NCBI GenBank assembly: GCA_032622095.1 | Contig: CP136066.1 | Coordinates: 202,080,978 to 202,144,977 of the forward strand | Reading direction: 5' to 3' | From: Siphonodentalium dalli | Lineage: Eukaryota > Mollusca > Scaphopoda > Gadilida > Siphonodentaliidae | Length of the DNA stretch: 64,000 nt | Shown: in pieces, positions 8,708-52,800 of the stretch | How the letters are laid out: each line of letters begins with the position of its first letter | Numbering within the stretch: position 1 is the first letter of the stretch | Notes under the pieces: model-generated | What the model saw: only the letters and a program-made list of their open reading frames with translations | Databases searched by the model: none | Told to the model about the DNA's origin: nothing | Program-made: the position numbers and the translations under genes

Positions 8708-11700
8708 ATTATAGGTAATATAAAATCCAATGGTGATCAGTTATTAAGACGCATTAATATCATTGTAGGTAATATAAAATCCATTGATCAGTTATTAAGA
8801 CGTATTAATATCATTATAGGTAATATAAAATCCATTTGTGATCAGTTATTAAGATGCATTAATATCATTATAGGTAATATAAAATCCATTGGTGATCAGT
8901 TATTAAGACGCATTAATATCATTATAGGTAATATAAAATCCATAGTTGCTCAGTTATTAAGATGCATTAATATCATGATAGGTGATATGAAAGCCAATGG
9001 TGATCAGTTATTAAGACGCATTAATATCGTTATAGGTAATATAAAATCCATTGGTGATCAGTTATTAAGACGTATTAATATCATTATAGGTAATATAAAA
9101 TCCATTGGTGATCAGTTATTAAGATGCATTAATATCATGATAGGTAATATGAAATCCAATGGTGATCAGTTATTAAGACGCATTAATATCGTTATAGGTA
9201 ATATAAAATCCATTGGTGATCAGTTATTAAGACGTATTATTATCATTATAGGTAATATAAAATCCATTGGTGATCCGTTATTAAGATGCATTAATATCGT
9301 TATAGGTAATATAAAATCCATTGGTGATCAGTTATTAAGACGTATTTATATCATTATAGGTAATATAAAATCCATTGGTGATCAGTTATTAAGACGCATT
9401 AATATCATTGTAGGTAATATACAATCGATTGGTGATCAGTTATTAAGACGTATTAATATCATTATAGGTAATATAAAATCCATTGGTGATCAGTTATTAA
9501 GACGTATTAATATCATTATAGGTAATATAAAATCCATTGGTGATCAGTTATTAAGACGCATTAATATCGTTATAGGTAATATAAAATCCATTGGTGATCA
9601 GTTATTAAGACGTATTAATATCATTATAGGTAATATAAAATCCATTGGTGATCAGTTATTAAGACGTATTAACATCGTTATAGGTAATATGAAATCCAAT
9701 GGTGATCAGTTATTAAGACGCATTAATATCGTTATAGGTAATATAAAATCCATGGGTGATCAGTTATTAAGACGTATTAATATCATTATAGGTAATATAA
9801 AATACATTGGTGATCAGTTATTAAGATGCATTAATATCGTTATAGGTAATATAACATCCATTGCTGATCAGTTATTAAGACGTATTAATATCATTATAGG
9901 TAATATAAAATCCATTGGTGATCAGTTATTAAGAAGCATTAATATCGTTATAGGTAATATAAAATCCATTGGTGATCAGTTATTAAGACGTATTAATATC
10001 GTTATATGTAATATAAAATCCATTGGTGATCAGTTCTTAAGACGTATTAATATCATTATAGGTAATATAAAATCCATTGGTGATCAGTTATTAAGACGTA
10101 TTATTATCATTATAGGTAATATAAAATCCATTGGTGATCCGTTATTAAGATGCATTAATATCGTTATAGGTAATATAAAATCCATTGGTGATCAGTTATT
10201 AAGACGCATTAATATCATTGTAGGTAATATAAAATCCATTGGTGATCAGTTATTAAGACGTATTAATATCATTATAGGTAATATAAAATCCATTTGTGAT
10301 CAGTTATTAAGATGCATTAATATCATTATAGGTAATATAAAATCCACTGGTGATCAGTTATTAAGACGCATTAATATCATTATAGGTAATATAAAATCCA
10401 TTGGTGATCAGTTATTAAGATGCAATATCATGATAGGTGATATGAAAGCCAATGGTGATCAGTTATTAAGACGCATTAATATCGTTATAGGTAATATAAA
10501 ATCCATTGGTGATCAGTTATTAAGACGTATTAATATCATTATAGGTAATATAAAATCCATTGGTGATCAGTTATTAAGATGCATTAATATCATGATAGGT
10601 AATATGAAATCCAATGGTGATCAGTTATTAAGACGCATTAATATCGTTATAGGTAATATAAAATCCATTGGTGATCAGTTATTAAGACGTATTATTATCA
10701 TTATAGGTAATATAAAATCCATTGGTGATCCGTTATTAAGATGCATTAATATCGTTATAGGTAATATAAAATCCATTGGTGATCAGTTATTAAGACGTAT
10801 TTATATCATTATAGGTAATATAAAATCCATTGGTGATCAGTTATTAAGACGCATTAATATCATTGTAGGTAATATACAATCGATTGGTGATCAGTTATTA
10901 AGACGTATTAATATAATTATAGGTAATATAAAATCCATTGGTGATCAGTTATTAAGACGTACTAATATCATTATAGGTAATATAAAATCCATTGGTGATC
11001 AGTTATTAAGACGCATTAATATCGTTATAGGTAATATAAAATCCATTGGTGATCAGTTATTAAGACGTATTAATATCATTATAGGTAATATAAAATCCAT
11101 TGGTGATCAGTTATTAAGACGTATTAACATCGTTATAGGTAATATGAAATCCAATGGTGATCAGTTATTAAGACGCATTAATATCGTTATAGGTAATATA
11201 AAATCCATGGGTGATCAGTTATTAAGACGTATTAATATCATTATAGGTAATATAAAATACATTGGTGATCAGTTATTAAGATGCATTAATATCGTTATAG
11301 GTAATATAACATCCATTGCTGATCAGTTATTAAGACGTATTAATATCATTATAGGTAATATAAAATCCATTGGTGATCAGTTATTAAGATGCATTAATAT
11401 CGTTATAGGTAATATAAAATCCATTGGTGATCAGATATTAAGACGTATTAATATCGTTATATGTAATATAAAATCCATTGGTGATCAGTTCTTAAGACGT
11501 ATTAATATCATTATAGGTAATATAAAATCCATTGGTGATCAGTTATTAAGACGTATTAATATCTTTATAGGTAATATAAAATCCATTGGTGATCAGTTAT
11601 TAAGACGTATTAATATCATTATAGGTAATATAAAATCCATTGGTGATCAGTTATTAAGACGTATTAATATCATTATAGGTAATATAAAATCCATTGGTGA

Positions 11701-12265
11701 TCAGTTATTAAGACGTATTAATATCATTATAGGTAATATAAAATCCATTAGTGATCAGTTATTAAGACGTATTAGTATCATTATAGGTAATATAAAATCC
11801 ATTGGTGATCAGTTATTAAGACGTATTAGTATCATTATAGGTAATATAAAATCCATTGGTTATCAGTTATTAAGACGTATTAATATCATTATAGGTAATA
11901 TAAAATCCATTGGTGATCAGTTATTAAGACGTATTAATATCATTATAGGTAATATAAAATCCATTAGTGATCAGTTATTAAGACGTATTAGTATCATTAT
12001 AGGTAATATAAAATCCATTGGTGATCAGTTATTAAGACGTATTAATATCTTTATAGGTAATATAAAATCCATTGGTGATCAGTTATTAAGACGTATTAAT
12101 ATCATTATAGGTAATATAAAATCCATTGGTGATCAGTTATTAAGACGTATTAATATCATTATAGGTAATATAAAATCCATTGGTGATCAGTTGTTAAGAC
12201 GTATTAATATCATTATAGGTAATATAAAATCCATTAGTGATCAGTTATTAAGAGGTATTCGGTTC
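8708..12265. repeat. 54-bp minisatellite array, about 66 units, open in one frame
   Basis: Tandem units around taaaatccattggtgatcag and ttattaagacgtattaatat. Because 54 bp is 18 codons and the unit has no stop in this frame, the + strand stays open for about 1,200 codons, repeating GNIKSIGDQLLRRINIII. Both visible indels are 3 bp. A block of about 27 units is duplicated (an acaatcgattgg variant unit recurs 1,455 bp apart). The open frame has no upstream ATG; the first in-frame ATG is inside the array near 8975. I treat it as a repeat, not a gene. Confidence 0.95.
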
Positions 12266-28800: not shown

Positions 28801-31800
28801 AGATCAATTCAGAGTGAATATAATTATCTCATTTGTGAATTACATGTGTATTTATTAATCGACGTAAAGTTTTTAACTTTTGAAAACAAAAATAACATAG
28901 GTTTTTCCTGGGTGGCAATTGGCTCACTAAAATGTGCACATCATTGACGAATAATAAGTCGATTGGAAATTTAAATACTGTCTCATACAGTACATCTGAA
29001 AATTTGACAGGCACCATTTTGAAATTACCAACACCATCCATTTTTTGACAGGCACCATTTTGAAATGACCAACACCATCCATTTGGTGCCTGTCATTTTG
29101 ACAGTCAGTAAAACAAAAATTATTTCGAGCCTTGTCTTTAATGCATCATGAAAGAGATAATACATTTTATTTTCCTTCCAGATACATGTACACCACTCTG
29201 ATTGTTGTTCCTAGCATTGGGCATGTGTTGGCTGACCACAACATTCCACCTGAAAACCTTCCTCACCGAGAACAGATCAAACTCCATCAGGAGGAACTAT
29301 ATGTTAACACACCAGGTATGCTAACACACTGGGTATGATAACACACTGTGCAGTATAACACTGGGTATGATAATATACCAGGTATGGTAACACACTGGGT
29401 ATGATAACACTGGGCAGGATAACATACTGGGTTTGATAACACATCGGGTATGATAGTGCACTGGGTATGATAATACACACCGGCTATGATAACACTGGGT
29501 ATGATTACACACTGGGTATGATAACACATCGGGTATGATAATGCACTGGGTATGATAACACACCAGGTATGATAACACCAGGTATGATATCACACCGGGT
29601 ATGACAATATACCCTGTATGATAAGACACCGGGTATGATAACACACTGGATATGATAACACACCAGGTATGATAACACTGGGTATGATAGCACACTGGTT
29701 TGGGTATGATAACACACTGGGTATAATAACACACCGGGCATATAACACTGTGTATGATAACACACCGGGTATGATTACACACTGTAATGTTTGTTCTATT
29801 GCCAGAACAATTATTGGATTTCATAATGGATTATTTAAACAAATAGTGAACCACAATTGACTATATGTATATGATAATAGCCATTTAAAGTGATGTGAAA
29901 CACTCCGGTAGGGTGATCAGATAGAAACTGAGAATAATCTTGCTCAAAGTAGTTATTTTTTATGAATATTAATCCAAATTGACAACACACGCCATCATAC
30001 TTATATATTAATTAAATACAATGACTCTTGATGTCAAAATAATTTGTGTTAGTTTGTCGCCAATAGTTGCGTCCCGAATCGAGATGTAAATATTTACAAT
30101 TGAGCGCTGTTCAGATGATGTTTTCTATGGAGTGGTTAGGTAGATTTCTTTGAAATTTTCGGCGATGTTAGTAGAATGCTACATTCCCCATGTTGACATA
30201 GTGCCTGGGTACTAACTTATCAATTTCACGCGCCCGAACAAGTCCATAATATGTCTTTAACAGATTTCGTAACTGATCATCCTGATGGTTTAATACATTT
30301 ATCAACTATAAATGTTTGTGTTGAGCTGTCACCGTTATAATTGGTTACATTAGATAATAATCAACTATAGTCTATATGTATGTTGGACCTGTTGGTATGA
30401 TAAACTTTGTCAAGCAAACAAATCTCATTTGACACCCATCAATTACTATCAGTTTTTTTCAATGTCAAATTTTAAAATTGATTTTTTCTATGCACCTTGA
30501 CTTATACGGAAATGCCATTTTGATAGGTTACATGAGGTTGGGAAAAGAGGTTGTTTGTGATTACAACATCTGGTTGTGACGAGCGAAAATAATCATAAAC
30601 AACAGCTTAGGTCCACACAAATTCTCATCAGAAATCAATTGACAGAATCATGATCAAGGACTCGCAATTTATCAGCAATAATCGCTCGTTGTTTTATCTT
30701 TTCATACTACCTTGATATATTACATGTTTGGCAACTATGATACTGCAGCTGGTAATAGTTGGGATTCAAATTCTATATTGGGATTTGAATATGCTAGTTT
30801 TTAATATTGTCCTCCGAAAATATTTCAGAGGACTATTATAATCAACATGTCTGTCCTTGCGTGCGTGCATCCGGCTTATCCGGTTGATAACTTCAACACT
30901 ATTGTTCGGAATTCAATCAAATTTGATATTTTTATGCGTAGTTCAAGTTCAAATTTGGGTACGAACCGATGATTTCGGATGGAGTTACGCCCCATTTTGA
31001 CTTAAAATTTGATGGTTTTCTTGATGTCCGAATGATGACTTGAGAAATATTTGACAGAATGCTATGAAATTTGGTATGTGGTGTTTATATGAGAAAGTCA
31101 CTATATGGTTCAAATTTGGGTCCGGTAAAATTAATTCTGACAGAGTTAATTTACGCCCCCTTTAGACTTAGAATATGACAATTATCTCAATGTCCGAATG
31201 ATAACTTGAGAAATATTTGACTGAATGTTATGAAACTTGTTAAAGCAACTTTTGCAACTGGATCAGGCCAAATAAAATAGTACCGTCGTTTCCGGTAACG
31301 GAGGGCAAAAAATTAGGGTAGGGAGGGGGGTAAACCTCTTCTTTTTTTCTTCTTTTTTTTTATTCCCATAATGCACAAGGTAATAACATCCCTTAATGTA
31401 TTGTAGATACATGTACAGATATACTATGTAATAATGTATATATAGTCTATCTAGATATAATATTGTGATAAACTTGCAAGGCACTTTATTTTATATTCTT
31501 TTATTTAAGTTTTTATTTATCATATGGCCTGGCAATAACAGGAGTTAGACTGCTCTTTGTACAAATCTCGCATATATAGGAGTGGCTGTCTTGAATCTTT
31601 TGTCTTAGGGAAGCTTTCACCACACCAATACCTTCCCCACATTGGGCACAATAATACTAAGTCAATACCTCTATAAAACTGGTAGAGACTTTATTCTAGT
31701 TAGTTGAATTTTTATTTACAAATTATAGTCAGGACTATTATATATGATTGATTCTTGGTATAATTTAGTACATGCATGTAGAATTAAGTAGTTATTCCAT

Positions 31801-34800
31801 AATAACATGTTGCGTTAAAGCATGAGTTCCCTGTATGTGAACAATATTGACCTGCTAAAAAAATTCCCACCTCCCTGCACCTTCCCACAAATCATCAATG
31901 TTTCATCCAATTTTCATACTGGGGTTACATGCTTCAGTGCCTAAAAATCTGAAAATTTAACAACAGATTGTTGAGAATTTGTATGAAACAATCAATTGTC
32001 ATATATGTCCAAAGCCGTTTAATTTCTATTAATCAACACCCCCAAACATTTCAAATTGAGTTTATAAACATATTCCATACCCATCAGTCTAAAAGACTTT
32101 GGGTTAAAGTTGCCTATTTTCGAGGAATCATGTTTTTGTATGTTTGTTAGCCCACTATCCCTGGTTTGGTGTGTTTTGTGAGTGCGATTTTGCAAGTTAA
32201 TTAGGCTAATGACTCATTGAATTGAAACCAGCAACTTAAACTAATAGAAACTGGAAGAATAAACTTCAATAAAGTCAAGTTGGGAAATGAGATTTGTAAT
32301 TTTCAGACTGTAAATTGGGAACTTTTGAAATTTTTTTTATTTTGCAAATAAAAAGTTTACGGGGGGCCATCTGGCTAGCGGGGGGTAGGGTTACTGGAAA
32401 CAAAGCTATTTTTGTTTATGCCTCATACAGGAACCTTTGAATCAGATGTCTTGATTGTTATATTGTGTTTTGATTTACACTGATATCTGTTGAATATTAA
32501 TTACAGCTGTAAACGATTTACACTGATATCTGTTCTATATTAATTACAGCTGTAAACGATTTGCACTGATATCTGTTCAATATTAATTACAGCTGTATAC
32601 GATTTACACTGATATCTGTTCTATATTAATAATTACAGCTGTAAACGATTTACACTGATATCTGTTCTATATTAATTACAGCTGTAAACGATTTGCACTG
32701 ATATCTGTTCAATATTAATTACAGCTGTATACGATTTACACTGATATCTGTTCTATATTAATAATTACAGCTGTAAACGATTTACACTGATATCTGTTCT
32801 ATATTAATTACAGCTGTAAACGATTTGCACTGATATCTGTTCAATATTAATTACAGCTGTATACGATTTACACTGATATCTGTTCTATATTAATTACAGC
32901 TGTAGACGTAAGTGTCCTTGAGATGTTCACCAATAGTGTTCTGTGTCGAGAGAGCTACCTATTCACATCCTGGATGAGGAAAAACCTTGAGGCGGCTTTC
33001 AAACTTTATTTGAAACAGGAGTATGTACAGGTTCTTTATCAACTTGATACTCTATATTATTTGATAAATTGGAATCATTTAATTGGATTTCTTGGTAAAT
33101 TTAGCCACAAAGAAAGACCTTTAACACTTCTATGATTGGAGCTTCCTGAAATTTTTCGAAAATCCTGTGCCAATGCATTCACTTATATATGCAAGTCTTG
33201 CATATATAAGAGAATACATTGTCCTAACAATATTTACCTTGACCTTGTAAGCCAGTGCATTCTCTTATATATGCAAAACTCTCTATGGGAGACTCGCATA
33301 TAATGCCATATATAAGAGAATGCACTGGCACAGGATCTTTAATTCTGCACCATTGCAGCTTCTGTCATGAAGGGTTTATTAATAATTTAAATAATGTAAA
33401 TGACATTGAACAAAAACAATAAAATGACACTTGCTTGTTTGAAATATTAACCATATAATGTACATTTTTTTCAGATTTGCATACTATAAATATATAGTGT
33501 TACCACTGTCCTAGTTTGTTTTGTGATGTTTCCACTTAATCAACTTTAAATAAATTTGCTTTTGAATCTTAATATTATTGCTGCATGGTTCATTTCCTCT
33601 GTTGCCAGTGTTTCCATCGTAATAGAAGAAATATTTTTAAAAGTTAAAAAAAATATATAGTGTACCCACTGTCCCAATTTGTTTCAAGATTTTGCCATTG
33701 AAAAATGAAAATAAATAGCAAGATATGATACTAATAGTTACACGTATAATAAATTCACGCAACATATGTCACCACTACCTATTTAGTCTGTTTGATGTCA
33801 AAATTTGATGAAATAACGTCCAGATATTTCCAATGTTTCCACATGTTTGAAGGGCCTCTATTTACCCAGATATGGGTACAGCAATGTCGAAATTCTTATA
33901 CGGGTTAAGCACCCATCAATGTATAATTTTTCAGGTACGGGTACAGCATTGTATAATTTTTCAGATACGGGTACAGCAACGTATAATTTTTCAGATACGG
34001 GTACATCACCTGCCTATGTATAATTTTTCAGATATGGGTACATCACCTGTCTATTTTTATTATGTATAATTGTTTAGATACGGGTACAGCACGCATGAAT
34101 GTCAAAATGTTTGTGAATGCATCCTCAATGTATAATTTTTCAGATCCAGGTTCAGCACCCATCAATGTATAATTTTTCAGAAACGGGTACAGCACCTGTC
34201 TATTTTTATAATGTGTAATTTTCCAGACATGGGTACACAACCTGTCTATGTTTGACTTGTATAATTGTTCACATACGGGTACAGCACCTGTCTATGAGCG
34301 GATAGCTCAGTTGGTTTGTGGGCCGACCTCTGAGCTACACCTTCGACACGGTCAAGGGTTCAAATCCGACAAAATATCGGTCGGACTTTGTGTCGCCATG
34401 TGCATTCCCAGTACCATGGGCATCACAAATCAATCATCGATGCCACGATCGGTGATCCCAGAAGCCAAAGAGTCTCAGACAAAATTTGAAAAAATGCGTA
34501 CTGGACTAACTTCGTACCTCTGCTCCTCTCGTAATGTCATGACCAGGGATGACACTACACTTGGCACACCGTCGGATCGGGAGCCGACGCTAATGGCTGT
34601 CCCATGTGCAACAATGTGCGCACGTTAAAGATCCCTACCGTGGCGAAGAAGTCACGGGTTCGGCAAAAAAAACTTCCTGGAAAAATTATGGATCTACTCG
34701 ATCCCGTCCTGTAAAAGCCAGCCCTGGTGACTAGGACGTAACTACAGATATGTATAACTTTGTAGTTACAGGTACAGCACCTGTCTATTTTTTACTTGTA

Positions 34801-37800
34801 TAATTTTTTAGATACGGATACAACAGTACCTTCTATGGATATTTTTTAGATACAGGTTCGGCACCTGTCTATGTATATTTTTATATGTGGGTACAGCACT
34901 TGTCTATGTATAATATGTTTAGATATGGGTACAGCACTTGTCTATGTATATTTTTAGATATTGGTACAACACCTATCTATGTATATTTTTAGATACAGGT
35001 ACAGCACCTGTCTATAATTTTTCAGATATGGGTACATCACCTGTCTATGTATATTTTTAGATATGGGTACATCACCTGTCTATGTATAATTTTTCAGATA
35101 TGGGTACAGCTCCTGTCTATGTATATTTTTAGATACAGGTTCAGCACCTGTCTGTATATTTTTAGATACGGGTACAGCACCTGTCTATTATTGACTCAGC
35201 TGGAGCATGGGTTGCGGAGATTATTTGCTAAAGTAAACAACGCTCCCGAGAGGATGGTCACAGCTGAGGTAAGCTGCTAAGATTCATTAAAGCATATATT
35301 TCCTAGATTCCTAAATGCTACATGGTTATTTGCTAATTGACTTTGTGACTCTCTTTCTTAACAACTCTTCCAATAACAATAAAATTGTTCATGAAATATT
35401 TCAACCATTTGATTGTTTTAGTGTTCCAGAACACAGTGTCATGCATATTTAACCCTTGCTTCGCGATTTGTAAGTTTGTGATTTGGCAAATGTCTTTAAA
35501 CTGTGTAATTATAATAAAAATACTATAGAAAATAGAGTTACAACCCTTTGATTGTAATTTTTCGTGGTTTAGCACCCAGGAAAATTTGTCTTTGTTGTCC
35601 CACATTTGTTGAATTACTTACAATAAGCCGATAAACTTCTTGGGTCCTGATATAATGTTTGTCACACTGCAGTGGCTGCGAAGCTTACTTTTGAACTTCA
35701 GACTCTGTAAAGACATATTCAGGGTTCCAGACCTCCAGTTACAACAACAACATGAAAAATCATATTGTGTTTTGTTCTGTTGAAAAAATGTTGAAAACCA
35801 AATATGACACATAATAAACTGCATGGAACTATATAAAATACAAATAATATCATTTTGTCATTCATTAATTTATAAAATAATTTTTGGTGTCCCTCTAAAA
35901 CATCGAAATGATATGAAATAAATTAATAGACAATTAATTCAATATGAAACAAAATAGCATCTTTCATGCAAGCCTGCAAATAGCGTGCCTGTCATTTGCA
36001 GAATGAGGTCCCCAGAGGGTGAATTTAGTAATGCTATCCCGCACAGCGGGCTAGCATCACCAAATTCACCCTCTGGAAACCTCATTCTGCTTAGGCCTCA
36101 TCTTCTGGGAAGTATTTATTGTATCAAATTAACACTGTTTTTAGTTACATTTTCCCTTCTGGAAGTTTCTATACCCCCTAATTTGCAGAAGATAAAATCC
36201 ATAATCGAGGCGCCCAATGGGTGAACATCACCAACTTCAACTGGGGAACTCCAATCTGATCCTAGGTCTACCATAGCAGTTGAGGGCCTAAGCAGAATTA
36301 GGTCTCCAGAGGGTGAATTTAGTGATGCTAGCCCGCTATGCGGGGTAGCATCACTAAATTCACCCTCTGGGGACCTCATTCTGCAAATGACAGACACTCT
36401 ATTTGCAGGCTTGATTTCATGTAGCACGCCTTGTTTTAAACATGTTATTATATGCTAGAAACTAAATCAAATGTGTTTGTAAAAATAAGCCCGGAACTCT
36501 GAATACATCTTTAAAGATGCATAATCTGATTAAGCACCCCTTAATTACTATTTATTTGGATTTGTGGGTAAAAAATATTTTGATTTGAGTCGAGGAACCC
36601 ACCTATCAAAGCTCAGAGTTATATTAGATATCGATTTTTGAAATCTATTATTTTTAACAATCGAGGCTTATCAGTAGCCAAGTAAAAAGTCAACGAGCCG
36701 ATTGAAGATGAATTGCCGATGAAGATGGATAACTATAAAATCAAGAGACTTTGTGTTGATAATAAGGCCAAATTTTGACAAACAACATTGTTGATAAAAA
36801 ACACGTTTCGGGCAATGTTATACTAGAGTTACAGTGGTTAGCATTATTTTTGGACAATTAACCAATTCTGATAACTGAAGTGGCATTTCTAAAAATGTTG
36901 TTGTTGGAATCTGATTATATGGGGACCATCAAATCGGATTGAGTGCCTTTAAGTTAATTAATGCTACATTGTTACTATTTGCAGGCTACGACTCTCTATA
37001 CCACTTTCGATGAGGTATGTATGTCTACAAGTATATCTAATCCTGCCATCCAGTAAACTATTTTCCAGTAATGCGTTCATTCCAGTGCAATGTTTTGGCC
37101 GAGGTACGCTTTCACGCGGGTGATATAACACTGTTTTGGCCGAGGTACGCTTTCACGCGGGTGATATAACACTAACTAGACTTGGTCTATTACGTTTACA
37201 GCCTTGAATTAGTGTCTGTAATTTGCAAGATGAGTCCCCCAGAGGGTGAATTAGTGACAATATCCTGCTCAGTGGATTAGCGTCACCAAATTTATCGCCC
37301 TCTGGGGACCTCATTATGCTAAGGCCTCGTCTTCTGGGAAGTATCTATAGTCTCAAAATAACATTGTTTTCAGTTTCTTCTGTCCAGTTTCTATATCGAC
37401 TAATTTGCAGAAGATAAAATGCATAATCGAGGTAACTTAAATTGGTGAACGTCACCAACTTCAACTGTGGAACTTCAATCTGATCCTAGGTCTCCCATAA
37501 CAGTTGAGGCCTAAGCAGAATGAGGTCCCCAGAGGGATAGCATCACTAACTTCACACTATTTCAAGGCTTGTTTGTTTGAACTAAAACCTATTCTAAGTC
37601 CACACAAACTTTTTTTATATCTGTTTCTCAGACATTACTTTTTTTCAATGGGAAGGCAGGTTTTTATTCCCACTTTTTATGACAAAAATTTCCCAGCAGG
37701 TCTGTTTTTAGCTCAACTTTACTTTGGGATCTGTTGTCCTGCACCTGCGATTATGAGGTCCGTCTGACTTTTGTGTGTGGAGTTATCCTTGGATAATCAG

Positions 37801-40800
37801 GTTGAGATTAATAAATCCAGGCTAATTACCCAACCTGTTTTCTTCGCATTTCTGTTGCCTTTTTTTGGCTGCTATTGTATATCAGTTTTTGAATTTGTGA
37901 GAAACTGTTTCCGATTAGGAGTGCGGTACTCTAGTGTCCCAAATAGAAGAACAGACCGGAATAGTAGTACAGGGTGGACAATTGGGCAAATTTCAATAAT
38001 AGAATAGACCGGAATAGAAGTACAGGGCGGACAAATTCTTAGATATGTCTCAATATTCGAACAAGCCGATCATTGGCTATCAATATGTCAACCCTCCCTT
38101 GGTATTTGCTGGTACTTGAGTGTCCAATAACTGTAATTGAATTCAAAGTCAATGACATCCTGTTTTTTATATCTACCAGTACCAATACCAGTACATGTAT
38201 ATATATATATATATATATATGAGCATCAAGATTTAATTAACTATAAATATTTATTATAACCAATCACGTTCATGAAAGTTGCTTGCTGATGGTAGGGGTG
38301 GGGTCTACCTATGAAATTTCCTATTGCACCCACATCTTTTACCCTTTCATGGCTCCCAATTGTTCGACTGGCCCGTGCCCATCTGGATGAAATTTTAGTT
38401 GGGGAAATTTCGCGGGGAAATGTGCGTGCCCATATGACGTCGCTTTGGATACAACTTATGATGTCACCTAATAGTTTATGTGAACGTGAACATGCTTTTA
38501 CTAATTTATTAAACTAAAGAATAGTTTATTTAGTGATATGACAAACATTTTAGACATTTACGAGATAAGTCATGTTGTTTTCGCGATGTGGCTAACTAAA
38601 TGTGCAGTTTTAAATAATTTCCGTCATTTTCCAAATGGCATAGCAACCCGAGTCAGGTCGGCAATATTTAGGATTTAAGTAATGATTATTGTTTAAAGTA
38701 TAAACCATGTAATGTCTTCATGCAATGAATACTGTTTTGTTGGCTATATGAAAAGTAATATTTTGTAGTTTTAATTTAATTGTAATGACGTTTCCAATAT
38801 GGCGGCGCCTCAAAATCAAGATGGCGGTGCCTTAAATTCAAGATGGCGGTGCCCATGTTGAAAAACGAACTCAGTATAAGGACGATTCAGCGCATGTGTT
38901 GCTATGCCATGCTATGCATGCTGTGCCCAGCTGGTCGTCTTTAAAAAAACCTCCGTGCACTGCTTTCTCTTCGTTTTTGCTTTCTTTCAGATTCTAGACA
39001 AAAGTTTGCCAAGTGACACTGAAAATAAACTAGTCCCGATGCTTGGTGAATCCCACATGGTGAGTGGTATGTTCTGTCACCTACATCTGCTTTACATTCT
39101 ATAAGTCATTGTTGAGAGTTGTACATGATGGTCTCAATATTAATCCTTTCATGATGGGAGCTGTGCTGGGGCAGCATTAAAGATCCTGTGCCAGTGCATT
39201 CTCTTATATATGCAAGTCTCCCATAGGGGGTAAATGGAGTGCACCCTAGAGACAATAAATTTTGGCGCACTTCACCAATAAAAAGTTAAATTCTAAAAAT
39301 TTCTGACTGGCAAGAGAATTCACCCTTCCATGACTGGAGCATCCTGAAATTGTGCAAAAACCCTGTGCCAATGCATTCTCTTATATATGTGAGTCACCCA
39401 TAGGGAGCCTCACATATAAAAGAGAATCCATTGGCCTAACAATATTTACCATGACCTTGTAAGCCAGTGCATTCTCTTATATATGTGAGGCTCCCTATGG
39501 GAGACTCGCATATATATGAGAAAGCACTGGCACAGGATCATTAATGCCGCACCAGCGCAGCTCCCATCATGAAAAGGTTAACCTAACTGTAAAAGTCTTT
39601 ATCATCATTTGGACAGCAAAATAAACACGTCTGATGATTTATTTCAAGCCTACCAACCGACCCTATTTTTTTTCGGCTTGTAACCCAAACCAGACATTTT
39701 ATTTTTTTTGGCCTAAGGGTCACACTGTATTCTATTTTTATATATATGAAAATCACCAAAAATGTTGCGGGGTAGGGGTAAAAAGTCACCTCATGGTGCC
39801 GAATTTATAGCAATTTGTAAATAAAATTTAGCGAAGATATTCAAACACCAATTTTCAATTTCATTACACACATGCTTTACTGAATCTTCTAACATGCTGT
39901 ATGTTTCCTTATTTCTTTGTGAATTGCATGATTTATTAAAATTTGTATATTTATTTTTGTCCAAATGTGTCTGCTTCATAAAAAATCACCTGCGTAATTG
40001 TTTCAGTTCCGGTTTCAAGTTAATGTGAACACCTCATTTACTCTATTTTCAGGATATCCTGCTTGATCTGCTGATTTATCCAGAAGGTCCGAGAATCCGA
40101 GACAAATTGAGCCACGGTGAAACGCCCTTGCCCCAGTTTCCGAGGTCTCTTGCCACAGCTGTTATCTGTCTTATAATTTCTGTATCATGTAGTGTTTGTG
40201 AAAGTCCACAGGTAAGGGTTATTCTCTTCAATCATTGCTTTGATTAACCCCTTCATGACTGGAGCTTCCTGAAAATTTGCGAAAACACTGCGTCAATGCA
40301 TTCTGTACATGATACTCAAGTGATCATACGGCCATATTTCATTGAACAACATGTTGATAAATAACATGTTTTGTGAAATTTTATATATGCGAGTCTGGCA
40401 TATATAAGAGATTAATTTTGCCTAACAATATTTATCTTGACCTTGTAAGCCAGTGCATTCTCTTATATATGCGAGGCTCTCTATGGAAGACTCGCATATA
40501 TAAGAGAGTGCACTGGCACAGAATCTTTAATGCTGCACCAGCACAGCTCCAGTCATGAACCTCATGAAAGGGTTAAGAAGTAGCTTTCAGATGAATCCGT
40601 TGCATTGGTACGTACATTGCGTCGAAATGATCCGTTGTCTGCGTCAAATCATTCACACAGATGCGTACATTGCGTTATAACACAGATTCTTATTAATAAT
40701 TGCAGCTAAATAAGTTTGATATTGGAATAAATGCAATATTACAAATCAATCTATCTGTAATAAATTAATTCTATGATAATGTCAACCCAGGCCAGGGTTG

Positions 40801-43800
40801 GCGTTGGACCCAAATTTTCTCTTGCCAAAACTTTTGCCAAATGAGATTTTTTTTGGCCAAATTTAAAAATGATTTGCCAAATTTATTTGAGGGTATATAA
40901 TTTGGGAAATTGAAGAATGTTCTAATCTTTCTATTGTTATATAATGTAAAACCTAACCACATACACAGGTAAAATGAGCTAGTGAAGCAAGCTAGTATTA
41001 TTAATATATATCAAAGTAACAATAAATATCTAAGTGACACCAGAAATTACATTTAATGTTGCTAAGACAGTTATCAAATTTAAAGTATCTGTCATCACAG
41101 CAGACCTAATATTTCACCCTGTGTCTCAGTTGTCAATAAAGCCGAACCACCAATTAATCCCTCGCTCGACTGATTAACCTATAGTCTTATAATCGCTGGT
41201 CACAACACCCGGATATCATATATACGCGGTGTACAGTGTCGACAGCAATGTCCATACAAAGGGGATTAACTGTAAAAACTATTTTATAATTACATTTTGC
41301 GGTTGATTAACAGTTTGATGGCAGTTTGATATATACAGAAAGATATTACTGTTTGGTGAAAACTAAAGACTGATTGCTGGGTTGATAGATTTGTTGATCG
41401 GGTTTCATTTCGGCACGTGTAACGGATAATCCACCTTTGATGATGTTTTATGACTAGATAGTTCACATCACATAATTTAAAAACCCACTTGCCAAAAATT
41501 TTGCCAAATGAATTTTTTTTTGCCAAATGAAAATATTTCTTGCCATTGGCAAATTTGGCAAGTGGCAGCGCGAACCCTGGTCAAACCTGTCAAATCCCAA
41601 CAACTAACATTTTATGATATAATACAAATGATTTTCCTTAGCTTCGAAGACATTCGCCATCTTTTATCGATTGAAGACCAAGAAACGTCATGATGCACTC
41701 CATATGCAATACACCTTCTTTTGTATTGAAAAATAGAATATCTTTGTTGTGTGCATTAATGGATGCATCGTAATGGTCGCATCACAGCCATATATTTACA
41801 TACTAAGTGTTGTCATCACTAAATCCAGTATTCTGATTGGTCGGCGCCCACATGGCTAGTTGCAATTATTTCTCGGTGAATGCGCAACAGCTAATAACTG
41901 CAAGCTCATAACAACATCGATACGTCATTTGGGTTTGGAAAGACGAACGCGTAATGTTTTGGGCGCATTTGGATTCGCGCAGGATTGACTTAATAAATCA
42001 TCGAAACCAATTGTTCCTGTTAACTTTTGCCAACGGTGCTATGGGGTATTTTGGGCCGGTTTTGTCACGATACACTTTTCGATTTAAATACATTTACAAA
42101 AGTGCCTTTTTCGATAAATGTATATAAATATAAGGATTAACTGTCATGTGGACTGTTTTTATGGAGATGTAACCGTGAGGTTAGTGGTCATAACTTGTAT
42201 GTAAAACCCTTCGGGTTTTACACAAGTTATGACCACTTACCTCACGGTTACATCTCCATAAAAACAGTCCACATGACAGTTAATCCTTATATGAACGCCA
42301 ATTTCAAGCAACACACACAACAGTCCAAGTGTCCTTCAACATAAACCAGCAAGTGAAATCGTGACATAAACCAGCTGATGAAATCGGTTGGGATTATAGT
42401 GCTTGTTTTACGTTGAAGTCCCATTCATCATATACATCCTATATCAACTTTATGCCCTGATCCAGAGGCGGGATTTTTTGCCAGTTTTAATCTATTTTAC
42501 CTAACAAATAAATACATGATGCTATATATATCAGAAAGAGTGACATCTTATGGTCATAATGATAAATTATAATCTAAATTTCATGTTAAATTGCACATTG
42601 AATATGTCGTGCAAATACAGTAACCTCACTTTGTTTACATATTAAAGGCCCACTTAATATTCTAATGCCCAGATCACATTATTCACAACATAGTCCATGT
42701 TATATACCATTTGGAAGAGGAACCAAAAATATATATATTCCACCAGAATACGGAACAGCTGTGGCCTAGGAGTGTCCACCAAGCGATAGAGATTCTCAGA
42801 TTCACCCCAAGAGATACAGTTATTCCCCTTCCATTGAGAATAATAAAATGGTATATAATATGGAATGTGTTGTATATAATGTGATCTGGTAATTCACAAA
42901 TTAAGTGGCCCTTTAATACACACAGGCACTTTGCATTACATTACTACTTTCAGTTGATAATTCTTGTGGAGATCAAAACAAATATCATAGTTTTATGGAA
43001 TAAACAGGTATGCTATATCTTCGCCCGTGCGACTTCCCCATGAAATTTTGTGAAAACCCTATGCCAATGCATTTTCTTAAATATGCGAGTCTCCCATTGG
43101 GAACCTCACATGTATAAGAAAATACATTGGCCTAACAATATTTACCTTGACCTTGTAAGCCAGTGCAATCTCTTATATATGCGAGGCTCCATATGGGAGA
43201 CTTTATTGCTGCACCAGCTCATCTCCCATCATGAAGCTCAAACTTGTGTTGTTCTGTTTATTTCTAGTGTTGTTGGGCAAATGTTGTATCTTGATGTAGT
43301 TTCTTGATATTCCATCAGGTACCAGAGGCAGATGAACTTCGTGATGTTCTAAGCTTCTGCAAGAAATACGAATCCATGTTTCATCCAATTTCTATATTGA
43401 AGTCCAAGGTAATAACTACTATTGTCTATATACAAGATGCAAGGACATGATATACAAGCCTGGCTATAGTGTGTCTCACATTTTCAGAATGAGGTCCCCA
43501 GAGGGTGAATTTAGTGACGCTATCCTGCACAGTGCAGGCTGGCATTACCAAATTCACCCTCTGGGAACCTCATTCAGCTCAGGCCTGAACTGCTATGGGA
43601 GACCTAGGTTCAGATTGTAGTTCCCCAGTCAAAGTTTATGATGTTCACCCATTAAGTCACCTCGATTAAGCAATTTATCTTGGCAAATTAGGGGATATAG
43701 AAACTGAACTGAAAGGAAAAATTAACTAAAAACAATGTTAATTTGAGACTATAGATACTTCCCAGAAGATGAGGCCTAAGCAGAATGAGGTCCCCAGAGG

Positions 43801-46800: not shown

Positions 46801-49800
46801 GACCTCGAATCGGGTGCCCGATATCGACATCGAATCGAATCTCGAATATTTGTTCGCAGGTCCCTACTATCTGGATAAATTAAGTGACATACTTCTTTTT
46901 TCTAATATTTCAGGAATTTATAACTTACGATTTAATTCTTTGTCGTTCCAGGTGAAGAGATTAACAGACAATCATGATTTGTTGTGTCGGTCGCTAAAGT
47001 ATACTCCAGACTTCAATCAGCGGTATATTATCAAAACATATTATCTATAGAGTCTGCAAATAGTGTGTCTGTCATTTGCATAATGAGGTCCCCGAGAGTG
47101 TGAAATTTGTATTCTATCACATACAATGGGATAGCATCACCAAGTTCACCCTTATTCTACTTAGGTCTTATATTCTGGAAAGTATCTATAGTCTCAAATT
47201 AACATTGTTTTCTGTGGGATAGCATCTCTAAATTCACCCTCTGGGGACCTCATTCTGCAAATGACAGACACACTATTTGCAGGCTTGGATAGAACTACTG
47301 AACCATACAGTTTTACAGTCTGATTGTGCTCAAAATTGTTGGCTAAAAGGTTGGAAAGACTAACAAGCCTTGAAATAGTGTGTCTGTCATTGCAGAATGA
47401 GATCCCCAGAGGGTGAATTTAGTGATGCTACCCCGCATAGCGGGCTAGCATCACCAAATTCACCCTCTGGGGACCTCATTCTGTTTACACCTCAGCAGAA
47501 TGAGGTTCTCAGAGGGTGAATTTGGTGATGCTAGCCCGCTATGCGTGGTAGCATCACTAAATTCACCCTCTGGGGACCTCATTCTGCAAATGACAGACAC
47601 CCTATTTCAAGGCTTGGGTTGCACAGTTCTTGGAAATGTTTTCAAAAAACCTAAAAAAATAAACATTTCCACCGGCTTTTGAACAATCATCAAATCACAG
47701 TACACATAAAAAGTCTATAACTATAAATATAGTTTATATAGTAACTATTGTGGTGGAAATTGTAATTTGTTCACTTTTTAACACATATTTCCGCAACTGA
47801 TAACTGTTGCTATTCGAAACATGATTTGTGATGCATCATGGCAACATTCTGCATTGCATTGCAGAGAGAGAATCGTGATGCATTTAAATTACCATTCATC
47901 ATCGCAGGCCAACAATGTTTACTAATTTTTCACAATGCAAGATTTATGCTGTCACACATAAATACAACCTTATGACTTTACAATTGATTTATCACTCTTT
48001 TCATATGAAGGAATGAAAACAAAGATGATAATGAATGGTATGGAAATGATAACAAATTTGCTGATTTTATGGCAAGAATACAAACTGTGAGACAAGCAAT
48101 TCAGGACTGCAGGCCACAGGATCCATGGCTGACTGTAGATGAAAGGTAAGCTCTATAATACCTGAATCGTCATGGTGACATAATATGGCTCTCTAAAACT
48201 CTCTATATATCATGTCAGGAGAAGATTATAAGTATATGTAGTATATACCATACCTTACAAACCTTTTACATGTCAATTCATTTCTTCCAAAGTTACAGTA
48301 ATGGCCTAAATAATCGACTCCTTAACCACAGCAGAATTATGGGTAACTTTTCAGGATTTAGTCGGAAATATGGTTTGTTGCCTTTCATCGGAAAGCTCTC
48401 AGTGAGAAAAATTACCCATAATTCTGCTGTGGTTAAGGAGTTGATTATTTAGGTCATTACTGTATGGCCCCTAGAGTGTAAACTATGTCCATCCCAGTAT
48501 TTCCATCATGATAATTAGATCAGATGTGAATTATTTTTTGGTATTTTCATGAACCATAATGAGATGAAGTATACCACATGTAAATTTATCAAGTCATCGC
48601 AGACTGAATTAAGACATCTGTCGAATTAACCCTTTACCCAACAGAACGGCCCTGTGCCAATGCATTCTCTTATATATGCGAGTCGACTATAGGTCGCCTC
48701 GCATATATAAGAGAATGCATTGGCTTAACACATTAAAAATTATAAAATTGTTAAAGAAAGTAAGAAAAAATGGTAAAAAGTGTTAAAAACAGATTTTTTT
48801 TAGGCCAATATATTCTCTTATATATGCGAGGCGACCTATGGTCGACTCGCATATATAAGAGAATGCATTAGCACAGGGCATAACTGTAACCATCACAATG
48901 TGGTCGATGAGCCGGTTCCAATGATATCCATATTTGTATGGTTTTATTGAGACAGACCCAAGATAATTTAGGCTGTTGCAGCTTTATTTGGCCGTTTTTG
49001 GCCGGTTTGTTGGGTAAAGGGTTAAGCCACCTCAGAAAATGAATAAACCTCAGAGAACAGGAACATTTGTGGGGGATACTCCTGCTGAAGGATTCATTGT
49101 CGCCACATGTTGGTGTGTTGGGTACCCAGCTTTACGAAAAGGTGTTTTTGGTTACCCAGCTTGACCTTTGCTTTTTATCGGCATCATAACACAAAGAAAT
49201 GTGATAATTTCTATAGCATAAACCCACTAAGGTCAAGCTGGGTACCCAAAACAACTTCTCTTAAAACTGGGTGGGTAACTAACGCACCAAAATGTGGCAA
49301 CAATAACCCCTTCAGTGCACTTGTGATTTTTCTCAACCCTTTCTGTACTAAATACTTATTGACAAGTAGTTATCCCTTAGGAAATGTTCAGATAATAAGT
49401 TCAACAAATTACCATATGTCGCAAAATTTGTTGAAAGACATATTATGTTTTTGTTCAGGTGCATGAAACTGATAAGTTAGTACTCAGGTGCTATGCCAAC
49501 GGAGGGAATGTATCATTCTACTAACAGCACCGAAAATCTCAAGCAAATCGACCATACCACTCCAAAGAAAAAATTGTCTGAACTACGCTGAATTGAAAAA
49601 TATTTACTTCTCGAATCGGGATGCTTCTGTCGGCGATTAACTAATGAAAACGATTTTGCCATCGGCAGTCACTGCATTTAATTAATATATACGAATGACG
49701 GTGTGTGTTGTCAATTTAGATATAATATCTGTAATAATAACTACTTTGAACAAGATTATTCTCCGTTTTTTATGTGATCACCCTACCGGAGTGTTTCACA

Positions 49801-52800
49801 TCACTTTAAGATTATTCTCCGTTTATATTTGATCACCCTACCGGAGTGTTTCACATCACTTTTAGATTATTCTCCGTTTATATTTGATCACCCTACCAGA
49901 GTGTTTCACATCACTTTAAGATTATTCTCCATTTATATTTGATCACCCTACCGGAGTGTTTCACATCACTTTAAGATTATTCTCCGTTTATATTTGATCA
50001 CCCTACCAGAGTGTTTCACATCACTTTAAGATTATTCTCCGTTTATATTTGATCACCCTACCAGAGTGTTTCACATCACTTTAAGATTATTCTCCGTTTA
50101 TATTTGATCACCCTACCGGAGTGTTTCACATCACTTTAATATTATTCTCCGTTTATATTTGATCACCCTACCGGAGTGTTTCACATCACTTTAAGATTAT
50201 TCTCCGTTTATATTTGATCACCCTACCGGAGTGTTTCACATCACTTTAAGATTATTCTCCGTTTATATTTGATCACCATAGCGGAGTGTTTCACATCACT
50301 TTAAGATTATTCTCCGTTTATATTTGATCACCATAGCGGAGTGTTTCACATCACTTTAAGATTATTCTCCGTTTATATTTGATCACCATAGCGGAGTGTT
50401 TCACATCACTTTAAGATTATTCTCCGTTTATATTTGATCACCCTACCAGAGTGTTTCACATCACTTTAAGATTATTCTCCGTTTATATTTGATCACCCTA
50501 CCGAGTGTTTCACATCACTTTAAGATTATTCTCCGTTTATATTTGATCACCCTACCGGAGTGTTTCACATCACTTTAAGATTATTCTCCGTTTATATTTG
50601 ATCACCATAGCGGAGTGTTTCACATCACTTTAAGATTATTCTCCGTTTATATTTGATCACCATAGCGGAGTGTTTCACATCACTTTAAGATTATTCTCCG
50701 TTTATATTTGATCACCATAGCGGAGTGTTTCACATCACTTTAAGATTATTTTCCGTTTATATTTGATCACCATAGCGGAGTGTTTCACATCACTTTAAGA
50801 TTATTCTCCGTTTATATTTGATCACCATAGCGGAGTGTTTCACATCACTTTAAGATTATTCTCCGTTTATATTTGATCACCCTGCCGGAGTGTTTCACAT
50901 CACTTTAAGATTATTCTCTGTTTTTATTTGATCACCATACCGGAGTGTTTCACATCACTTTAAGATTATTCTCCGTTTATATTTGATCACCCTGCCGGAG
51001 TGTTTCACATCACTTTAAGATTATTCTCTGTTTTTATTTGATCACCATACCGGAGTGTTTCACATCACTTTAAGATTATTCTCCGTTTATATTTGATCAC
51101 CATACCGGAGTGTTTCACATCACTTTAAGATTATTCTCCGTTTCTATTTGATCACCATACCGGAGTGTTTCACATCACTTTAACTGTAAATATGTTTATT
51201 CCTTGCAGTCCTATCTCATCGTTGATATTAGTATTGTTTAAGTATGCAAAAATAATGGGAACTATTAAAGGAAAAGCGCCGGAAAGGCACAGACGGTTAT
51301 CTCATAAGTTTGCGCGTTTCCAGGATAGATACAGTAATGCTCTAATTAATCGACCTCTTAACCACAGCAGAATTATGGGTAACTTTTCAGGATTTAGTCG
51401 GAAATATGGCTTGTTGCCATTCATCGGAAAGCTCTCGCCGAGAGCTTTCCGATGAATGGAAACAAGCCATATTTCCGACTAAATCCTGAAAAGTTCTGAA
51501 AAGTTACCCATAATTCTGCTGTGGTTTAGAGGTCGATTAATTAGAGCATTACTGTAACTCTTGAAAAACATACGAAGACAACACGTTTCTCTACATTTAG
51601 TATAGAGATTGCTCTTGTTATATGTTAGCTTCTTATTTGTTGCAGGTTCTTTTTGGCGCTGCGCCCTTTTGGACCATCGATGGAATGTATTCTCCATAGT
51701 CACATAATAACATTATACAGATGTGGTTCAAACCAGGTTTGTTCTTAGTAAATTATTCTTCATAGTCACATAAAAGGTTCAATCATTTTGTTCCGATTTT
51801 CCATTCTTGAGTTATTCATCTTTGTTTATCAGGAAATGTTGACTTTTTGGTCCGTCCGATGTCTGTTCATGTCATAACTTCAACGGTTGCGCTCGGATCT
51901 CAATGTAATTTGGTATGGATGTTCACTACTATGAGAACATTCAATGGAAGGTTCAATAGTTTTGTTCAGATTTTCCATTCTAGAGTAATTCATGTTTGTT
52001 TATATGAAAATGATGATTTTTGGGTCCTGTCTGAGTATATAAGTCATAGGTTATAGGTTATAGGTTATAGGTATACCCATACTATGCAGTGTGCCACAAG
52101 GGGGTATGTACCGGACGACAGTCCATCTCTTGTTATGTACCTCAGGAAAACAACAGGCATCTCTGTGGACTCCTAGGCTACTTTATAGATGAGACAAGAC
52201 ACAGATGATTCTAATAACAACACAAATAGTTTTATATGATATAAAAATAGAAAAAAAGATGTGTTTTATGGATTTAATGATATTTTATCATTTTAATTTT
52301 TTGCAGGCGTATGAACAGTCACATGTTATGTCAAGGGAATCACAGATCATTGGTTTACTGCAGAAAATCGTCACTGAGCTGTATGATGGGGCGTCCCATT
52401 ATAATGATGCTGCATGTATGCGACAACATCAGCTTGAAACTCATCAACTGAGATCTCGCCAGAGAGAAAACACAAGAAGACTGATCGAAAGGTAATTATT
52501 TAAACTTTAAGTCTTATATTGAATTAAATGATTTAATGATTTTTTTGCCCCATGATGAAAGTGTACAATCGAAGCGGTAATGTAACGCAATGTGTCATAA
52601 TTGAGGGAAGCCTGTACACTTCCAGGAAATGACAGTTTGATGAGACTGCATTTGACTCAGTATGCAGGATTTCCATTAGTACGGCTCAGTGTCTGTAGGA
52701 TGGCCTCAATCCCCTCGCTGATGATTTGTGAGTCATACATGTACCTAAATTAAATCGCATTCTATCGTAGAAAATCTGGCTGTAATGAGAGTTCCATGGT

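Follow-up and report, generated by a model that had tools for sequence, protein, structure and literature searches.

The name 'mirage' was reportedly coined in the original paper on the Adh gene of amphioxus. As far as the excerpted text of two reports goes, mirages in amphioxus are tandem repeats that lie across an exon-intron boundary, at the donor or the acceptor, with units of 10-160 base pairs (bp), many of which contain AG/GT, and with copy numbers that vary between haplotypes (PMC3087553, PMC3902484). The same excerpts place them in Adh3, in the globin genes BflGb6 and BflGb9, in PGBD5 and in troponin C, describe them as thought to be harmless to splicing, and report that the edge units are excluded from homogenization (PMC3087553, PMC3902484). 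In an excerpted report on potato, a tandem duplication across an intron-exon boundary of an RNA-dependent RNA polymerase (RdRp) gene duplicated the splicing signals and gave a new intron (PMC4974935). Among the matches listed by a literature search of partial coverage, there was neither a report of mirages from any organism other than amphioxus nor a count across a whole genome. Here, we describe three arrays of this kind in an ERMARD-like gene of the scaphopod mollusc Siphonodentalium dalli. The window analyzed is a stretch of 64,000 nucleotides (assembly GCA_032622095.1, contig CP136066.1, positions 202,080,978 to 202,144,977 of the forward strand). The arrays are real, but their kind has already been named and they are not a new system. 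What is new is the frequency of such arrays (18 of 398 exon edges in a sample from elsewhere in the genome), their occurrence in a 2.23-Gb genome of 9 contigs, unlike that of Branchiostoma (about 0.5 Gb, 19-20 chromosomes), and the passive nature of the internal splice sites. In our judgment, the arrays are probably minisatellites of the mirage type, produced by ordinary tandem duplication across a splice junction, tolerated there, and then subjected to copy-number turnover.

We provisionally take the gene to be ERMARD from the initial annotation and from weak Pfam support. The latter consists of two weak complementary half-matches to DUF4209, both below the cut-off, from the exons upstream and downstream; the Pfam search gave no DUF4209 match for exons 6-8. 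Exon numbers are those of the initial annotation, coordinates are window positions, and all features of the gene given below are on the forward strand. Exon 6 (29182..29315) was delimited by its open frame and the splice consensus, and its junction has a counterpart in a second copy of the gene. Exon 7 (32900..33020) and exon 8 (35166..35268) were delimited by the sequence and the joined translation, and both are matched in the two ERMARD copies. Joined and translated, exons 6, 7 and 8 form a single open frame of 119 codons. With a slash marking the junction, the exon 6 donor reads CACACCAG/GTATGC, the exon 7 acceptor TTAATTACAG/CTGTAGACG, and the exon 7 donor CAGGA/GTATGT. The acceptor of exon 8 is one of two candidates that lie 12 bp apart, in the same frame and both within the repeat unit: TTTTTAG/ATACGG (start 35166) and GGTACAG/CACC (start 35178). 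We prefer the former as the putative acceptor, since an exon starting at 35166 should align gaplessly to human ERMARD.

Each of these junctions is the edge of an array detected by Tandem Repeats Finder (TRF). Array 1 (29300..29782) runs from the exon 6 donor into intron 6 and contains 28.8 copies of a 17-bp unit. It covers the last 16 bases of exon 6, and its donor unit is almost wholly exonic (16 of 17 bases). Array 2 (32472..32908) contains 10.0 copies of a 43-bp unit, which carries the junction TTAATTACAG/CTGTAAACG; the array ends inside exon 7, of which it covers the first 9 bases. Array 3 (34797..35188), at the exon 8 acceptor, has a 35-bp unit in approximately 10 copies (10.4 counted from 34823) and covers the first 23 bases of exon 8. 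A more degenerate and older part of array 3, with units of 30-46 bp, lies at 33917..34296. The two parts are split by an insert of about 500 bp (34297..34796) that has a head resembling transfer RNA (tRNA) and looks by eye like a short interspersed element (SINE); ARAGORN and Rfam scans of the window gave zero tRNA or RNA family matches. The gene thus has one donor array and two acceptor arrays. Their TRF scores range from 427 to 807, and words shared by their consensus units are at most 6 bases long; the longest word common to arrays 1 and 2, which occupy the two ends of intron 6, is 5 bases. Given these scores, the unrelated units and the fact that the same junctions are arrayed in the second gene copy, the arrays are beyond chance. 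The initial annotation had proposed that three consecutive junctions are each the edge unit of a minisatellite of their own, mutually unrelated and seeded by the splice junction. Both proposals are borne out, the first by TRF, the exon frame and the second copy, and the second by the unit comparison.

The resemblance to the mirages of amphioxus is close. The boundary is spanned by all three ERMARD arrays (by 16, 9 and 23 exonic bases). Donors and acceptors are both affected (one and two in ERMARD, 11 and 7 in the genome sample described below). In addition, the ERMARD units of 17, 43 and 35 bp fall within the 10-160 bp range, with AG/GT inside. The initial annotation knew of no named mechanism for such arrays; as far as the excerpted reports go, mirages are the same arrangement, so this part of the annotation does not hold (PMC3087553, PMC3902484). 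The system in S. dalli differs in that one gene has three arrays, 18 of 398 sampled edges are spanned, and at least 16 near-identical donors stand in a row at one kinesin locus (L039). The length instability of mirages is allelic; the differences in length observed here are those between paralogs, namely between the two ERMARD copies (approximately 4 vs. 29 units) and within trios of kinesin genes. Ordinary intronic minisatellites likewise have similar units, change in copy number and decay in sequence; the arrays described here differ from them because one end lies in a coding exon and the units copy a splice junction.

The second ERMARD copy (copy B) was found by protein searches approximately 540 kb away on the same contig. 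We compared it (L003/L004) with window positions 29144-42028. At each of the three junctions, copy B likewise carries an array of this kind, and the splice dinucleotides at the exon edges are kept. Its donor array has approximately 4 units compared with 29 in the window copy, its exon 7 acceptor array has 12 units compared with 10, and its exon 8 array is degenerate. The identity of the two copies was 83% in the portion of intron 6 that could be aligned, approximately 90% around exon 6, and 99.2% over approximately 6 kb downstream (35942-42028). Because the identity climbs from 83% to 99.2%, the region is a mosaic, which suggests recent gene conversion. Judged from this comparison, the arrays would be either older than the gene duplication or transferred by conversion. 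In searches of the whole 2.23-Gb assembly, which pass over very common words, the first 221 bases of array 1 and the first 129 bases of array 2 had no match outside the two ERMARD copies. Arrays 1 and 2 are therefore home-grown, seeded in place at this locus. We also considered a dispersed satellite that imports splice sites; for arrays 1 and 2 it was rejected by the same matches.

To sample exon edges elsewhere in this genome, we used matches to the Pfam families AAA_6 (dynein heavy chain) and kinesin. The dynein sample comprised 89 of the 96 listed exon matches (123,422 bases in about 18 gene blocks), and the kinesin sample comprised 110 of 123 (129,780 bases), with 11 matches from recent duplicate blocks and 2 others omitted. 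An ad hoc splice-site matrix served to predict the edges, and those of the hits were also viewed by eye. Arrays were scored at a TRF score of at least 80 and a period of at least 15, and an array was called spanning if it crossed the junction and included 5 or more bases of the exon. There were 63 arrays, five of which resembled miniature inverted-repeat transposable elements (MITE-like) and were set aside, leaving 58. Junction-spanning arrays were present at 18 of the 398 edges, with 5 among the 178 dynein edges and 13 among the 220 kinesin edges; 11 of them stood at donors and 7 at acceptors. The exonic share of the spanning unit varied from 0.10 to 0.90, with a mean of 0.51. This wide share and the mixture of donors and acceptors fit breakpoints that fall anywhere across the junction. 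The sampled 253 kb also held the 40 other non-MITE arrays, of which one lay inside an exon. The initial annotation had suspected a tendency of the genome and not a one-off, and the recurrence in other genes agrees with this. At the measured rates, and assuming 24-34 splice sites, the probability of at least three arrays in one gene is approximately 0.03-0.20. Since such arrays occur at 18 of 398 edges elsewhere, three in one gene are uncommon but not extraordinary.

Several spanning units encode protein motifs. The unit of L018, present in 14 copies at an acceptor, encodes GLASCGAWSCFDEFN; that of L026 encodes DHYDFGMR, that of L034 encodes LGNVIMALANK, and that of L039 encodes MNLVDLA, in at least 16 copies, the array being cut by the end of the locus. 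These four motifs are recognized as conserved, and their positions lie inside the Pfam matches. In these cases, the conserved coding sequence within the units shows that the array arose from the exon and not the reverse. Several arrays close to an exon were scored as non-spanning: that on the acceptor side of L117 (0 exonic bases), that of L095 (2 bases short of the exon), that of L085 (25 bases short), and both arrays of L024, one of which starts 4 bases into the intron and the other of which ends 48 bases short. The L024 array that starts 4 bases into the intron looks exon-derived. The array of L022 was detected by TRF on the gene strand only and not on the plus strand. Two dynein paralogs carry arrays at an equivalent acceptor, with units of 68 bp (L010, 11-204 in gene orientation) and 83 bp (L022, 207-378); a third dynein paralog (L023) had no array at that acceptor at the score used.

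Kinesin paralogs illustrate the turnover of such arrays. In three paralogs that are 95-98% alike, a donor array with a 30-bp unit has 11.5, 14.5 and 14.5 copies at one exon. An acceptor unit is visible in 6 copies in L130, 4 copies in L115 and 1 copy in L131, where the junction is single and a 130-bp array stands just upstream. By eye, the single unit of L131 looks truncated beside the 130-bp array and not ancestral. These differences indicate that the copy number changes quickly and that the junction can stand without an array.

Given this evidence, we propose the following course. A short tandem duplication with one breakpoint in the exon and the other in the intron would cross the junction by chance. 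The extra copies would become intron, and the copy adjacent to the exon would supply an intact splice site together with the coding edge; the duplication would be tolerated because this exon-proximal copy is still complete. The array could then expand and contract as any minisatellite does, by unequal exchange or slippage, and the cryptic splice sites left behind in rows would be evolutionarily passive. Such events would have occurred separately at the three ERMARD junctions and repeatedly elsewhere in the genome. On this course, splicing would stay accurate, and the arrays would presumably be neutral in respects other than the splice dinucleotides as well.

A number of results weigh against so passive an origin. 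First, when the 58 arrays were placed at random, 10.1 were expected to span a junction and 18 did so (p 0.002). The excess was also present in dynein alone (5 vs. 1.8 expected, p 0.026), in kinesin alone (13 vs. 8.2, p 0.025), and with the MITE-like arrays kept (18 vs. 11.0, p 0.009). Second, by the position of proximal ends, 18 fell in the exon zone and 4.0-4.5 were expected from the intron density, which is an approximately 4-fold excess (p 0.0004 to 0.00002); with the MITE-like arrays, the expectation was 5.5-6.4 and the excess 2.8- to 3.3-fold. Third, the junction bias differed with copy number, as evidenced by 13 of 27 multi-copy arrays and 5 of 31 two-copy arrays spanning a junction (Fisher p 0.011). 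In addition, the exclusion of edge units from homogenization that is reported for amphioxus was inconsistent here, with the edge copy less similar than the internal copies in 6 of 12 arrays. Finally, most arrays are young, so that the test of splice dinucleotides described below is low in power.

The first three of these results bear on the possibility that splice junctions are hot spots of tandem amplification, for example through breaks associated with R-loops or with transcription. Arrays of at least 2.5 copies account for the excess, with 13 observed against 5.0 expected by placement (p 0.00004) and 0.9-1.3 expected by proximal ends, and the excess is in addition confined to arrays that contain the junction, since proximal ends within 50 bases of the junction on the intron side do not exceed the background (4, compared with 2-6 per 50-base bin in the rest of the first 300 bases). 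On the other side, two-copy arrays had no excess (5 vs. 5.1 by placement and 5 vs. 3.3-4.0 by proximal ends); they are the youngest stage, and their spanning rate matches random placement. Dynein alone lacked the multi-copy bias (3 of 9 vs. 2 of 8). A 24-base self-match centered on the junction was found nearby at 20 of 396 edges and at 18-29 of 356-385 control points 60-250 bases into the intron, no excess, in a comparison where the control points are partly non-independent, as junction arrays reach over them, and where an interior point offers more ways of being covered than a junction does. Exons whose coding motifs are repeated may be over-represented in the kinesin sample, with 4 hits among the stronger 55 exons and 9 among the weaker 55 (Fisher p 0.25). 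The guanine-cytosine content of the spanning and other arrays in the sample did not differ (0.35 vs. 0.37, p 0.52). On balance, hot spots are a rather unlikely explanation. For the boundary-prone process raised in the initial annotation, the results from this sample are mixed: the placement excess favors it, and the self-match at control level does not. Junctions are at least not spared, and are probably somewhat favored. The broader proposition that junctions attract or retain multi-copy amplification far more than the intron around them does, by a junction-specific process, genome-wide and probably outside amphioxus, is possible, though we hold it only tentatively; if it is true, rows of near-identical cryptic sites flank a few percent of splice sites.

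Selection could keep or expand the arrays if the extra splice sites aid exon recognition or serve as decoys. The junction bias is strongest in the multi-copy arrays, as selection would have it, and the splice-site scores of many internal copies equal that of the true site: 15 in L039, 10 in L018, 9 in array 3 and 3 in array 2, although only 1 in array 1. Several genes thus confront the cell with a choice among near-identical sites. We examined the conservation of the internal sites by wraparound alignment of 21 arrays; L031, L115 and copy B's array at exon 8 were left out. The internal splice dinucleotides were kept in 114 of 131 cases, compared with 112.7 expected from the other columns, and outside ERMARD in 65 of 71 cases, compared with 64.6. 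In arrays 1, 2 and 3, they were kept in 22 of 27, 9 of 9 and 9 of 10 copies, respectively. In copy B, the AG was kept in 7 of 11 internal acceptor copies, below the 10.4 expected. The column similarity was 0.896 in the splice core, lower than in the other exonic (0.934) and the intronic (0.953) columns, which is partly an effect of the 17-bp arrays. Internal dinucleotides are therefore no better conserved than other bases of the unit. Selected decoys, which the initial annotation had raised, have no support from this test, and we regard selection on the arrays in general as improbable.

The internal units are alike at 0.90-0.98 in 10 of 12 arrays; the values for arrays 1 and 3 of ERMARD are 0.77 and 0.85, by which these two would be older than the other arrays compared. 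At the kinesin locus L117, the donor array of 30-bp units lies at 636-988. Use of its second donor would add 10 in-frame residues (VCINLSRLLK), and the donors beyond the second would run into a stop.

It was also considered that intron 6 itself was born by tandem duplication of an exonic AGGT segment. The 17-bp unit is exonic in 16 of 17 bases with AGGT at the exon edge, and the potato RdRp gene, as far as the excerpt describes it, gained an intron by a tandem duplication that likewise crosses the boundary and copies the splicing signals (PMC4974935). However, an intron born in this way should share one repeat at both ends, and the units of arrays 1 and 2, which occupy opposite ends of intron 6, are unrelated (common word of at most 5 bases); unlike in potato, no new intron is evident here and the copies stay within the existing intron. 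Intron birth was thus rejected, and its likelihood is very slight. An assembly artefact, with repeats collapsed or falsely expanded, is less credible still: repeats are error-prone in assemblies and the second ERMARD copy is just 540 kb or so away on the same contig, but the units differ from each other by point differences, the arrays differ between gene copies that have diverged (83% in the aligned intron 6), and arrays of this type occur again at 18 of the 398 edges in the sample.

If mirages exist outside amphioxus at a few percent of sites, as in this sample, then more than one animal genome features them. How the spliceosome chooses the exon-proximal site is put to a natural experiment wherever at least 16 donors or 14 acceptors stand in a row in near-identical context. 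Such rows are also the material from which the proposed 'mirage' route could make new introns.

The window contains other arrays detected by TRF. An array of 26 copies of a 55-bp unit lies at 49752-51183, and a lone reverse-complement piece of this unit was recognized by eye in intron 6, at about 29890-29935; the 55-bp unit thus seems to be dispersed, in contrast to the junction arrays. The longest array in the window has a 54-bp unit in approximately 66 copies and lies at 8708-12259.

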